DNA of 23,030 bases from the IMG/VR virus record IMGVR_UViG_3300009128_000652, positions 1 to 23,030 of that record; one strand, given 5' to 3'. Position numbers and translations under genes: made by a program. The DNA comes from a virus. The number at the start of each line of letters is the position of its first letter. Within the stretch, counting starts at the first letter, position 1. The notes under the pieces were generated by a model, which was not told the origin of the DNA, searched no databases, and saw only the letters and a program-made list of their open reading frames with translations. Of the stretch, positions 3,598-20,500 are shown one piece after another.

Positions 3598-4986
3598 CAG
3601 AAACAAAAACAAATAGAAATGAAAACAGATTATCAAAAGTTTTTAGAAAGTAAGAAACACCTGTTAGGTAGTTTTGGTTTTGAACCAAATTTCATACCAA
3701 ACATGGCTTTTGACTTTCAAAGAGAAATTATCAAAAGAGCTACCTTAAAGGGTCGTATGGCTGTTTTTGCTGATACCGGATTAGGTAAGACCTTAATACA
3801 GCTATCACTAGCTCAAAACGTTGTTAACCATACAAAAGGCAAGGTTTTAATATTAACCCCTTTAGCTGTTGCTTTTCAGTTTATAATAGAAGCTGAAAAG
3901 ATGGGTATTACAGATATTGAATACAGCAAAGACGGAACACATAGTAAAAGTATTGTTATATGTAACTACGAACGTTTACACTACTTTAACAAAGAAGATT
4001 TTCAAGGAGTTATATTAGACGAATCTAGTATATTAAAAAACTTTGAAGGTAAGATAAAAAACGAGGTTACAAGATTTGTTAAAAAGATACCTTATAGATT
4101 CCTTTCAACTGCTACACCTTCTCCTAATGATTTTATTGAATTGGGTACATCTAGCGAGGCTTTAGGGTATATGGGTTATACTGATATGTTAGGCAAATTC
4201 TTTAAGAACAACAACAACTCAATAGACCCCAAACACGCAGGAGAAAAATGGTATCTAAAACCACACGCAGAAAAAGACTTCTTTAGTTGGGTTAATCAAT
4301 GGGCTATTATGGTGAAAATGCCTAGCGATTTAGGTTTTTCAGATGATAAATACATTTTACCAGTATTAAACATTAACACTCATAAGATAAAAAACAATTC
4401 TTTATTAGCTGTTGATGGTCAGATACAAATGTTTAACAAAAAAGCTAAAGGGTTTAACGAGGTTAGACATGAAGTAAAACAAACAATAAAAGAACGTTGT
4501 GAAAAAGCTGTTGAACTAGCTAAGGGTAAAACGTCTGTTTATTGGTGTAACCTAAATGAAGAAAGTAAACTAATAAAGTCTTTAGATGGTGAAGCTGTTG
4601 AAATCATTGGTAGTCAATCAATGGAGAAAAAAGAACAGATATTACTAGACTTTGCACAAGGTAAAATTAAGAGAATAATTACTAAAGCTAAGATGACTGG
4701 TATGGGTTTAAACTGGCAACACTGTCAACACTCTGTATTTTTCCCTACTTACTCTTATGAGCAGTATTACCAATCTATTAGGCGTTTTTGGAGATTTGGT
4801 CAAAAGAAAGACGTTACTATTGATATGGTTATTTCAGACGGTCAAGAAAGTGTATTAGAGTCTTTACAGGTTAAGACTAGAAAAGCTCGAGAGTTACATG
4901 AAAACTTAGTAAAAGATGTAAACAACTCTTTTAACAACATAACAAAAGAATTTAATCAAGAAATTAAACAACCTAAATTTATTTAA
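3580..4986 (+). CDS. SNF2-family DEAD-like helicase / ATPase
   Basis: The protein has 468 residues with both RecA-like lobes. Seen: Walker A ADTGLGKT (64-71), Walker B DESS (147-150), motif III STATPSPND (about 176-184), and in the C-terminal lobe TKAKMTGMGLNWQHC and the motif VI-like QSIRRFWRFGQ arginine finger region. These identify an SNF2-type translocase of the kind many phages carry beside a DNA methyltransferase. It likely remodels or unwinds DNA during replication or recombination. DESS in place of DEAH is usual in the phage branch. Three ATGs are possible (3580, 3583, 3619); the third, MKTDYQKFLESKKHLLG, fits the candidate promoter better. The stop is followed after one base by the methyltransferase ATG, implying one transcript. 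Confidence 0.85.
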   Translation: MMVLTLQKQKQIEMKTDYQKFLESKKHLLGSFGFEPNFIPNMAFDFQREIIKRATLKGRMAVFADTGLGKTLIQLSLAQNVVNHTKGKVLILTPLAVAFQFIIEAEKMGITDIEYSKDGTHSKSIVICNYERLHYFNKEDFQGVILDESSILKNFEGKIKNEVTRFVKKIPYRFLSTATPSPNDFIELGTSSEALGYMGYTDMLGKFFKNNNNSIDPKHAGEKWYLKPHAEKDFFSWVNQWAIMVKMPSDLGFSDDKYILPVLNINTHKIKNNSLLAVDGQIQMFNKKAKGFNEVRHEVKQTIKERCEKAVELAKGKTSVYWCNLNEESKLIKSLDGEAVEIIGSQSMEKKEQILLDFAQGKIKRIITKAKMTGMGLNWQHCQHSVFFPTYSYEQYYQSIRRFWRFGQKKDVTIDMVISDGQESVLESLQVKTRKARELHENLVKDVNNSFNNITKEFNQEIKQPKFI

Positions 4987-4987
4987 A

Positions 4988-6001
4988 ATGACAAAAGAAC
5001 AATTACACACCGATAACTACAGTATTTATAATTCAGACTGTATGGAGGTAATAAAAGCTATGGCTAATAACAGTATTGATTTATCTGTTTATTCTCCACC
5101 GTTCGCAGGACTTTACAACTATTCAAGCTCTGAAAGAGATTTTAGCAACTGTGAGACTAAAGAACAGTTTTTAGATCAATATGAGTTCTTAATAAAAGAA
5201 ATGGCTAGAGTTACTAAAAAAGGTCGTATTAATGCTGTTCACTGTACAGATGTCTTTGATAATACGTGTAGGCTTTGGGACTTTCCTCATGAAATCATAA
5301 GACTACATGAAAAGTACGGTTTTGAATATCGTAACCGTATAACTATTTGGAAAGAGCCTTTAAAGGTTCGTATGAGAACTATGGTACAGAGTCTTATGCA
5401 CAAGTTTATAGTAGAAGATTCTACAAAGTGTTTTACCGCTATGCCTGACTATGTTTTAATATTCACTAAAAAAGGTGAAAATGAAGTACCAGTAACACAC
5501 AAAAACGGACTAAAAAAGTATGCAGGAGCTACACCAATATTACCTAATATTTTAACAGCTTGGAATAACGCTAACGGAACTAAATTAAACGAGGATGAAT
5601 TATGGGAACACTTAAACAAAGAGTTTAAAGATCACACAGACCCAAAAAGCAACAAACTAAGTCATTATATATGGCAAAGATATGCTAGTTCTGTTTGGGA
5701 TGATATTAGAATAGATAACATTTTACCATACAAAGAAACTAAAGAAGAGGACGATGAGAAACACGTACACCCTCTACAATTAGATGTAATTGACAGAATA
5801 GTAGAGTTATATTCTAACCCTAACGAGGTTGTTTTTACTCCTTTTATGGGTGTAGGTAGTGAGGTTTTTAGCCCTGTTTCTTTAGGTCGTAAGGCTATCG
5901 GAGTAGAACTAAAAGATAGTTATTATAAACAAGCTATATTAAACGTTAAAGAAGCTAAAAAGAGATTTAAAGAAGAAGTAAAACAAACTTCTCTATTCTA
6001 A
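4988..6001 (+). CDS. DNA methyltransferase, beta class (N4-cytosine or N6-adenine)
   Basis: The 337-residue enzyme has motif IV SPPF (36-39) near the N-terminus and the AdoMet-binding motif I TPFMGVGSE (284-292) near the C-terminus, followed by GVELKDSYY (305-313). This IV-before-I order defines the beta class. Ser in the first position of SPPF is more frequent in N4-cytosine than in N6-adenine enzymes, so m4C is a reasonable guess. HPLQ (261-264) is another conserved element. No restriction endonuclease is adjacent, so it is an orphan phage methyltransferase. It may protect phage DNA from host restriction or mark DNA for the partnered helicase. It is co-transcribed with the helicase (1-base gap) and ends at a strong terminator. 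Confidence 0.87.
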   Translation: MTKEQLHTDNYSIYNSDCMEVIKAMANNSIDLSVYSPPFAGLYNYSSSERDFSNCETKEQFLDQYEFLIKEMARVTKKGRINAVHCTDVFDNTCRLWDFPHEIIRLHEKYGFEYRNRITIWKEPLKVRMRTMVQSLMHKFIVEDSTKCFTAMPDYVLIFTKKGENEVPVTHKNGLKKYAGATPILPNILTAWNNANGTKLNEDELWEHLNKEFKDHTDPKSNKLSHYIWQRYASSVWDDIRIDNILPYKETKEEDDEKHVHPLQLDVIDRIVELYSNPNEVVFTPFMGVGSEVFSPVSLGRKAIGVELKDSYYKQAILNVKEAKKRFKEEVKQTSLF

Positions 6002-8011: not shown

Positions 8012-8097
8012 TATTTGTAACTTGTTAAAAATCAAATTGCCTTGATGATAAAGCTTAATACGCTTTTAAACCCTTTCTGAATAGTTAGGGTTTTTTT
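8012..8097 (+). ncRNA. Candidate small structured RNA (about 86 nt)
   Basis: Between a perfect -7 element and a terminator, no open frame is present, but three successive hairpins can form. They are ATCAA-6 nt-TTGAT (near 8031-8046), AAAGC-7 nt-GCTTT (near 8050-8066) and the terminator hairpin (8068-8093). Size and layout (own promoter, compact hairpins, T7 tail) resemble a phage small RNA. It could equally be the 5' leader and terminator of the preceding or following operon. The first two stems are only 5 bp, so support is modest. Confidence 0.3.
8068..8097 (+). terminator. Rho-independent terminator before the terminase genes
   Basis: AAACCCT (8068-8074) and AGGGTTT (8087-8093) form a perfect 7-bp stem with a 12-base loop, followed by T bases to 8097. 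It separates the early-type operon from the packaging genes. Confidence 0.75.
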
Positions 8098-18728: not shown

Positions 18729-18765
18729 TGAGCCGTTTAATTTTATTATTCGGCTCATTTTTTTT
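18729..18765 (+). terminator. Rho-independent terminator after the fibre genes
   Basis: TGAGCCG (18729-18735) and CGGCTCA (18751-18757) form a perfect 7-bp stem with a 15-base A/T loop and an 8-base T tract (18758-18765). Confidence 0.85.
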
Positions 18766-19026: not shown

Positions 19027-19110
19027 ATGACACCAATAGAACTAATAACAACTATCTTTATAATAACCTCTATTTGTGGGGGGTATTATAGATTTGCTAA
19101 GAAAGTATAA
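19027..19110 (+). CDS. Possible 27-residue membrane micro-protein
   Basis: The ATG at 19027, 18 bases after the preceding stop, encodes a 27-residue peptide. About residues 5-17 (ELITTIFIITSIC) are hydrophobic and the end is basic (RFAKKV), as in single-span membrane peptides with a cytoplasmic basic tail. Its last part overlaps the -33 region of the RNA promoter at 19093. Very short frames occur by chance, so this is tentative. Confidence 0.35.
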   Translation: MTPIELITTIFIITSICGGYYRFAKKV

Positions 19111-19123
19111 TTTTGTATCTTTG
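19093..19123 (+). promoter_or_regulatory. Near-perfect Bacteroidetes promoter driving a small RNA (TTTG-N19-TATCTTTG)
   Basis: TTTG (19093-19096) and TATCTTTG (19116-19123) both match the -33/-7 consensus exactly with a 19-base spacer, the best promoter match in the window. Transcription should begin around 19128-19132, just at the start of the RNA's 5' pairing segment. Confidence 0.7.
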
Positions 19124-19129
19124 TTTTAT

Positions 19130-19217
19130 ACGGTCGCACGTAATAGTATAAAGCATTATAATAACTACCAACTAGTTATGTAAACCTTCAAGAAGTGCGA
19201 CCCTTGAGGGTTTTTTT
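19130..19217 (+). ncRNA. Predicted structured small RNA with 5' end complementary to its terminator loop
   Basis: This is a transcript of about 88 nt set by its own promoter and terminator, with no open frame. Three elements are seen. GGTCGCAC (19132-19139) is exactly complementary to GTGCGACC (19195-19202). ATAACTA (19161-19167) and TAGTTAT (19173-19179) form a perfect 7-bp hairpin with loop CCAAC. The terminator stem is 19183-19192 with 19203-19212, and its 10-nt loop (19193-19202) contains the whole GTGCGACC. The 5' segment and the terminator stem share no bases, but full pairing of both is sterically difficult because no nucleotides connect 19202 and 19203. The RNA may therefore switch, pair partially, or pair with a second molecule. 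I recognise no known family. The RNA itself is a strong inference; its function is unknown. Confidence 0.6.
19183..19217 (+). terminator. Terminator of the small RNA
   Basis: AACCTTCAAG (19183-19192) pairs with CTTGAGGGTT (19203-19212) over 10 bp including one G-U, with a 10-nt loop and T bases 19211-19217. Confidence 0.8.
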
Positions 19218-19224
19218 ATCTCCT

Positions 19225-19252
19225 TACAATAGTTTAAACAGGTTCTATTGTA
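19225..19252. repeat. Inverted repeat 1 (8-bp arms, ACAAT-N16-ATTGT core)
   Basis: TACAATAG (19225-19232) and CTATTGTA (19245-19252) are perfect inverted copies around 12 bases containing TTTAAA. The ACAAT...ATTGT core has a 16-base gap, the same as in inverted repeat 2. It lies directly behind the small-RNA terminator and is a possible operator or element boundary. Confidence 0.5.
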
Positions 19253-19450
19253 TTATGTCAGAGTTAAAAACCTTATTACCTTATGAGGTAGTAAAATAGT
19301 TTGACACAAACCAACATCGGAAATTTTGAGCAATGTCTTACCCGTGACAACTCAAGACCTACAAGCCGAAAGGAATTAGATGTTGAGGGTTGACCTTGGA
19401 GTTTTTACTTGGCTCTTGTTTGTTCTTCGCTAGACTAACCACACAAAAAT

Positions 19451-19482
19451 TAAACAATTTTGTATATTTATTTAATTGTTTA
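19451..19482. repeat. Inverted repeat 2 (9-bp arms, ACAAT-N16-ATTGT core)
   Basis: TAAACAATT (19451-19459) and AATTGTTTA (19474-19482) are perfect inverted copies. The ACAAT (19454-19458) and ATTGT (19475-19479) cores are 16 bases apart, as in inverted repeat 1. The spacer holds TATATTTA, one base from a -7 element, so a repressor site over a promoter for the 19546 operon is possible. Confidence 0.5.
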
Positions 19483-19545
19483 GTGATTACTTGTAGGGAT
19501 ATAGACGGGTTACACCCAAAATAAAAATAAAAAACATTATTAGGT

Positions 19546-19806
19546 ATGAAAGTAATAATAAAAAAAGATTCTTTGCTATACGATCTTTTAGAAGAAAACG
19601 AAAAAGATTTAAAATATGACATAGTAGATATGGTCGTATTTGGTAAAGAGGGGATATATTATGTTTTAGAATCATTAACTGATAACTATGAATTAATTAT
19701 TAAAAACGCACTACCAGAAGAAGTAGAAGAAGTTAAGTTAACATTTGGAGAATCAATATTAGAAGAAGTAAAAGAAGAAGTAAACCTATTATTAGAAACA
19801 TTATGA
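19546..19806 (+). CDS. Hypothetical acidic protein (86 residues)
   Basis: ATG at 19546 is the first in frame; a TAA lies 18 bases upstream in frame. The product is strongly acidic (many Glu in LLEENEKDLKYD and the C-terminal EEVEEVKLTFGESILEEVKEEVNLLLETL) and largely helical after a short beta hairpin (VVFGKEGIYYVLESL). No family was recognised. It ends in an ATGA overlap with the secreted-protein gene, so they are translated together. It follows the noncoding region and may be controlled by it. Confidence 0.65.
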   Translation: MKVIIKKDSLLYDLLEENEKDLKYDIVDMVVFGKEGIYYVLESLTDNYELIIKNALPEEVEEVKLTFGESILEEVKEEVNLLLETL

Positions 19807-20138
19807 GAAAAACAATTTTAACATCTGTATTAGTATTAGTATCTATATTATCATTTAGTCAAATGACATTGATCGAAACAGATACACTTAATCAAGGAAA
19901 CTTAATAACACAATCAAACTATCAATTTTATTATAGTGATAAGTTTATGATGTTTGGAAAAGAAGAAGAGAGCGAAGACAATTATACTATGTTCAAGTTT
20001 CAAGACTCAAAACAAAAAAGTATAGGTGGATGTATTTATGAAATACACAAAACAGATTCTAGTGTATATTTATACTTATCTAAAGATTGTGGTACGGTTA
20101 TGATAAGTGAAGGAGATAAAACGTTTATATTTTATTAA
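19803..20138 (+). CDS. Secreted/periplasmic protein with signal peptide (111 residues)
   Basis: The N-terminus MRKTILTSVLVLVSILSFSQ is a clear Sec signal peptide: basic start, hydrophobic core and an SFSQ end, typical of Bacteroidetes. The mature 90-residue domain is polar with two cysteines (GGCIYEI and KDCGTVM) that could form a disulfide outside the cytoplasm, and beta-type alternation (SVYLYLSKDC, KTFIFY). Function is unknown. A phage protein exported to the periplasm or surface suggests envelope modification or superinfection exclusion. It starts in an ATGA overlap with the acidic gene. Confidence 0.65.
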   Translation: MRKTILTSVLVLVSILSFSQMTLIETDTLNQGNLITQSNYQFYYSDKFMMFGKEEESEDNYTMFKFQDSKQKSIGGCIYEIHKTDSSVYLYLSKDCGTVMISEGDKTFIFY

Positions 20139-20167
20139 ACTGGCTCAATATTTGGTACTAATGCGAT

Positions 20168-20500
20168 ATGAAAAAAATAATATTAGTATTAGGGTTAATT
20201 GTTGCTTTTAATGTCTCTTACAGTCAAAAAAAGTATGTTAAAAAGCTAGAAACAGCTAAAAAAACGTTTTTATTTTATCAAGATTCACCATTTAAAAGAG
20301 TTTTAAAAAAGTCTGGAAGGTATAAGAAAAACACAATATTTATAGAAAAAAGATGTGATGGGGTGTTTTTAATAATACAAACTAAAAAGATAAAGCAAGA
20401 TAGTTATTATTACATATCTAAAACGTTTGAAGAGATTGAATTTGACAACGTAGAAGATATTAATAAATTTATTTATAACTTGCAGTATGAAAAAGATTAA
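20168..20500 (+). CDS. Second secreted/periplasmic protein with signal peptide (110 residues)
   Basis: MKKIILVLGLIVAFNVSYSQ is another classic Bacteroidetes signal peptide with cleavage after SYSQ. The mature part is very basic at the start (KKYVKKLETAKK) and has a short beta-rich core (NTIFIEKRCDGVFLIIQTKK) with one cysteine. Size, signal type and location match the preceding secreted protein, but the mature sequences are not obviously related. It overlaps the next gene by 14 bases. Its presence among virion-type genes is odd. Function is unknown. Confidence 0.65.
   Translation: MKKIILVLGLIVAFNVSYSQKKYVKKLETAKKTFLFYQDSPFKRVLKKSGRYKKNTIFIEKRCDGVFLIIQTKKIKQDSYYYISKTFEEIEFDNVEDINKFIYNLQYEKD

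Follow-up and report, generated by a model that had tools for sequence, protein, structure and literature searches.

A predicted phage RNA of about 90 nt whose 5' end is complementary to the loop of its own terminator

Terminator loops are usually regarded as irrelevant to termination. What, then, is to be made of a short phage transcription unit in which the terminator loop contains the exact complement of a segment near the predicted 5' end of the same RNA? The window analysed here, a viral contig from IMG/VR, has a length of 23,030 bases and a G+C content of 32%. Riemerella and Nonlabens phages encode large terminases that share 42-44% identity with that of the window, and as the promoter of the unit also fits the Bacteroidetes consensus, a host within the Flavobacteriia is likely. 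Judged from its sequence, the locus appears to be a promoter-to-terminator unit for a predicted RNA of ~90 nt in a Flavobacteriia-type phage contig, and it comprises the following features:

19093-19123, plus strand: promoter, an exact consensus match (TTTG, N19, TATCTTTG), predicted +1 at A19128
19128-19217, plus strand: predicted ~90-nt RNA, deduced from promoter and terminator, fold z-scores -2.3 to -2.9
19132-19139, plus strand: 5'-proximal segment X, GGUCGCAC (DNA GGTCGCAC), at +5 to +12
19161-19179, plus strand: 7-bp hairpin AUAACUA-CCAAC-UAGUUAU, -4.0 kcal/mol alone
19183-19212, plus strand: terminator hairpin, -11.8 kcal/mol
19195-19202, plus strand: segment X', GUGCGACC (DNA GTGCGACC), in the terminator loop
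19211-19217, plus strand: terminator U-tract, T7, the first two T also paired
19546-19806, plus strand: next downstream gene, 86 aa, possible read-through target

The exact match to the Bacteroidetes consensus that the initial annotation had claimed can be read directly from the DNA: TTTG at 19093-19096 is followed by a 19-nt spacer and by TATCTTTG at 19116-19123, in agreement with the sigma-A pattern of this phylum (TAnnTTTG at -12 to -5, TTTG or TTG at -33). Exact matches with spacers of 18-21 nt occur twice in the window, about one being expected by chance. Since the flavobacterial -7 box occupies positions -12 to -5 (PMC9723704), transcription is predicted to start at A19128, and the promoter-to-terminator RNA is thus slightly longer (about 90 nt) than the 88 nt originally given. 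The terminator has a 10-bp stem (19183-19192/19203-19212) that includes one U-G pair and can be extended by A19182-T19213 (10/11 bp), and this G+C-containing stem is directly followed by the U-tract, as in intrinsic terminators. Its loop of 10 nt (19193-19202, AAGTGCGACC) carries X' behind a 5' linker of 2 nt (AA) and with a 3' linker of 0 nt, i.e. X' is flush with the 3' stem strand. X' is indeed an exact 8-nt complement of X, and the 7-bp hairpin (arms 19161-19167/19173-19179, loop CCAAC) lies between them as described. For X, the predicted RNA offers only weak 4-bp local hairpin options, and the folding model suggests that X may reside in such a 5' hairpin. The promoter overlaps a 27-aa ORF at 19027-19110, which has an A-rich leader upstream, a hydrophobic stretch and KK near the C-terminus (MTPIELITTIFIITSICGGYYRFAKKV); its product could be a small membrane peptide.

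Is the complement more than chance? The X/X' pair is unique in the window, where shuffles expect none, and neither arm occurs a second time within the 23-kb contig. An 8-nt loop complement arises with a probability of 0.0006 in mononucleotide shuffles of the upstream sequence, of 0.0012 in dinucleotide shuffles, and of 0.0006 in random sequence of the window's composition. These values of 0.06-0.12% bear out the claim that eight G/C-rich complementary bases are very unlikely to match by chance, but as they concern a pair that was picked by a reader from the whole window, i.e. from many features, they are strong statistics and not a proof. A comparison with 145 terminators with loops of at least 8 nt, taken from 298 kb of 14 flavobacterial-phage sequences, identifies the window pair as an outlier: with -13.9 kcal/mol it is the strongest loop/upstream complement, the next one having -8.6 kcal/mol, and none of 5,800 null draws reached its duplex energy. 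The terminator at 8068-8093 was considered as a second example (AACTATT, 7 nt), but it is A+T-rich, has no matching promoter, and was judged to be a chance match. Coincidence is thus an unlikely source of the X/X' complement. The broader view, that this is an ordinary small RNA or terminator and that the complement merely emerged because many sequences were scanned, appears rather improbable to us: although a chance of about 0.1% per such terminator has to be weighed against the many terminators that were inspected, although the scanned flavobacterial phages contain no other G+C-rich example, and although the RNA is not conserved in sister phages, the match is G+C-rich in DNA of 32% G+C, is positioned at +5 to +12, abuts the 3' strand of the stem, attains an energy absent from the null draws, and belongs to a layout that is backed by covariation in unrelated RNAs from rhizobia.

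Homologues of the window RNA itself were sought in several ways. Rfam searches at the gathering score and at E-values up to 5 gave chance-level matches only, and blastn against named phages and plasmids did not find a homologue. In the IMG/VR scan, the exact X...X' pair was present in 101 stretches, none of which had the segment in a terminator loop, and the exact terminator had no match when the window's own record was excluded. Two sister phage contigs, L002 and L003, encode flanking proteins that are 79-91% identical to those of the window, and there a 95-aa gene (5250-5537 in L003) replaces the RNA together with a further noncoding stretch, so that this site evidently exchanges its cargo. 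Relatives with a similar portal protein were found in IMG/VR as the same-species contigs L109 and L110, which end before the RNA, and none were found in genome contigs. As no homologue of the window RNA was recovered, covariation support is limited to the rhizobial RNAs described below.

The surroundings of the RNA have features of their own. The accessory-gene block begins after a terminator at 18729-18765 (TGAGCCG...CGGCTCA-T8), which follows a tail-fibre-like gene and is kept in the sister phages, and the block has its own promoter-like sites. Downstream of the RNA terminator, a structured noncoding stretch of ~330 nt (19220-19545; z -3.7 for 19260-19379) includes a domain closed by CAACAUC/GAUGUUG with a possible GAAA loop; this stretch is absent from the sister phages and has no match in Rfam. 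The 86-aa protein encoded behind it has no relatives in the IMG/VR scan, while two small proteins with signal-peptide-like starts (19803-20138 and 20168-20500) are conserved in the sister phages and belong to no Pfam or PHROG family.

When 1.06 Mb of viral contigs were scanned for loop/upstream complements, two strong cases besides the window were detected, both in the IMG/VR contig L070, which is unrelated to the window contig, and the two differ in sequence. DNA similarity and protein searches starting from L070 led to elements of Sinorhizobium meliloti (pSymB, L137 and L138) and S. medicae (L139) and to further Rhizobiaceae genomes (L147, L149, L150). The leader RNAs of these elements each carry a 5' segment of 9-12 nt whose complement is found in the terminator loop, where it directly adjoins the 3' strand of the stem. 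The genes that follow the leaders include a helicase-like and a terminase-like one, names that are our interpretation, as these genes have no Pfam match. Each mobile element has one to three such leaders, in which X is also part of a long local hairpin; the sites are 5223-5422 and 8483-8692 in L070 (minus strand, plus-strand coordinates), 2290-2460, 3990-4155 and 6280-6465 in L137, 1900-2085 and 3975-4140 in L138, and further ones in L146, L147, L149 and L150. In an alignment of nine sequences, 97.9% of the cells of the tail/loop helix are paired, and 10 of its 11 pairs have changes on both sides. The covariation score is 0.747 (0.229 in shuffles), and none of 500 shuffles matched either this score or the percentage paired, while sliding the partner by 1-3 columns reduced pairing to 17-48%; the aligned rows are related, however, and their base changes are not independent events. 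At least six different X/X' codes are represented. The leaders have no Rfam match, their covariance model hits only 1 of 397 Rhizobiales genomes, and the IMG/VR scan for their promoter-like string returned nothing new beyond L070. They are candidates for a new RNA family in their own right, and they are the strongest evidence for a tail/terminator-loop type of RNA.

How does the window RNA relate to these leaders? Common to both are a 5'-proximal X, an X' in the loop that is perfectly complementary to it and flush with the 3' strand (8 nt with linkers of 2 and 0 nt in the window RNA), a hairpin between the two, a promoter-like sequence directly upstream, and the setting in a mobile element. 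The leaders differ from the window RNA in that their X is part of a long hairpin formed locally, which the window RNA lacks, in that X' has 9-12 nt, and in that genes follow closely downstream. There is no sequence similarity, the phylum is a different one, and as the covariance model of the rhizobial set (R1) has no match in the window up to E=10, the window RNA was rejected as a member of the rhizobial family. The two thus seem to share an architecture and not a demonstrable ancestry. The initial statement that nothing known has this layout needs to be qualified in the sense that unrelated rhizobial elements share it, although Rfam has no match to them either. That RNAs pairing their 5' end with their own terminator loop are a recurrent, independently evolved switch of phages and mobile elements, with fast-diverging private codes in Bacteroidetes phages and rhizobial elements, is a possible but rather doubtful generalization.

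What could the pairing do? The idea of a switch, which had already been put forward, is sensible and agrees with the folding of the nascent RNA, while the direction of its effect and its function are predictions. In nested models, the hairpin closed by X:X' (-13.1 kcal/mol) is nearly matched in stability by the terminator (-11.8 kcal/mol). X' emerges from the polymerase shortly ahead of the terminator's 3' arm, and if 14 nt are taken as covered by the polymerase, the probability of X:X' is 0.46-1.0 with the RNA 3' end at 19213-19217 and 1 at 19216-19217; the terminator prevails only once about 19212 is exposed. This folding model considers nested structures and ignores pseudoknots and contacts with the polymerase. 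In the model, the flip from X:X' to the terminator after the U-tract would represent the decision window of an attenuator. We favour, at somewhat less than even confidence, the reading that the RNA is a built-in antiterminator or attenuator, in which X:X' pairing sets how often transcription stops at 19217. X:X' would be the favoured nested pairing while the polymerase sits on the U-tract; if X is free, its formation would delay or block terminator closure and thereby cause read-through into the genes at 19546-20500, whereas capture of X would permit the terminator to close and the 90-nt RNA to be released. The natural captor may be the loop X' of a released copy, which would result in a negative feedback like that of P4 CI, but this is the weakest step of the scheme. 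It speaks for such an attenuator that no other terminator-like hairpin was found between 19217 and 19546. Against it speak the gap of 328 nt to the next gene, which contains a weaker promoter-like site (one mismatch), the lack of a strong local hairpin for X, which the rhizobial RNAs possess, and neighbouring genes that give no functional clue.

Alternatively, both helices may coexist in a pseudoknot, with X:X' stacked on the 3' strand of the terminator stem and AA crossing the deep groove. The initial annotation held that both pairings cannot form completely, since 19202 and 19203 are immediate neighbours. This is doubtful, as the same flush junction recurs in the covarying rhizobial RNAs. 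In H-type pseudoknots and loop-loop complexes, it is usual that a helix stacks directly onto the 3' strand while a 5' linker of 2-4 nt passes over the deep groove, and because a 3' junction of 0 nt together with a short 5' linker is normal stacked-pseudoknot geometry, the steric objection is weak and the pseudoknot is plausible. If it forms completely, X:X' could stabilize the terminator, and the effect on termination would be of opposite sign.

The same complementarity could serve interactions with other molecules. A free-standing phage small RNA might act in trans with X or X' as seed, which X:X' pairing would mask while also protecting the 5' end. Its own promoter and terminator, the distance to the next gene and a compact fold (z down to -2.9) fit this proposal, and X:X' closes the molecule in nested models, as a pseudoknot presumably could too. 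Yet the 8-mer has neither a second copy nor a complement elsewhere in the 23-kb contig, and predicted pairing with the transcript of the neighbouring 27-aa ORF is no better than that of shuffled RNA, for which reason an antisense role towards this ORF was rejected; we regard action in trans as fairly unlikely. Copies of the RNA might also pair with each other, either by the tail X of one and the loop X' of another or by a 6-nt GUCGCA/UGCGAC loop-loop contact, and thus form functional dimers or chains. A 5' hairpin UACG-GUCGCA-CGUA can indeed display six of the eight X bases in its loop, and the linkers of the terminator loop suit a kissing contact, but at low RNA concentration intramolecular pairing is favoured, and we consider such assemblies very unlikely to be the function.

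A terminator loop that reads the 5' end of its own RNA would be an RNA-only switch of <100 nt that needs neither ligand nor protein. Tail/terminator-loop RNAs are not an established family, but the mechanism is plausible, and in the covarying rhizobial set the contact has been kept by evolution while its sequence changed, which renders the idea testable with ordinary in vitro termination assays.

Among known systems, the P4 CI RNA comes to mind, which pairs with seqA, located upstream of it, and with seqC, located downstream, and thereby causes premature termination (PMC4825925). Like the window RNA, P4 CI and the C4-type immunity RNAs (RF01695) are phage-encoded and have self-complementary segments, but control of premature termination by this leader RNA is a prediction in the case of the window RNA, and P4 CI arises by processing of a longer leader and acts in lysogens, where it represses replication genes. 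RF01695 has no match in the window at the gathering score or at E<=5. In the HMP-PP riboswitch (thiS motif), a very compact RNA with a terminator-embedded aptamer, a 5' segment likewise competes with terminator closure, and a comparable decision window of one or two nucleotides has been described (PMC6478431). That riboswitch differs in binding a ligand, in its widely conserved loop and in its association with thiamin genes, and it is P1 that disrupts the stem, while in the window RNA an 8-nt segment pairs with the loop. The window has no thiS-motif match in Rfam, and its RNA is flanked by phage genes without assigned family. Loop-loop complexes serve plasmid copy control in ColE1 RNA I/II and genome dimerization in the HIV DIS. 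They are, unlike the window RNA, not formed with terminators of the same molecule, but in these complexes, as in pseudoknots and as predicted here, the helix made by a hairpin loop is stacked on the stem and bridged by short linkers.
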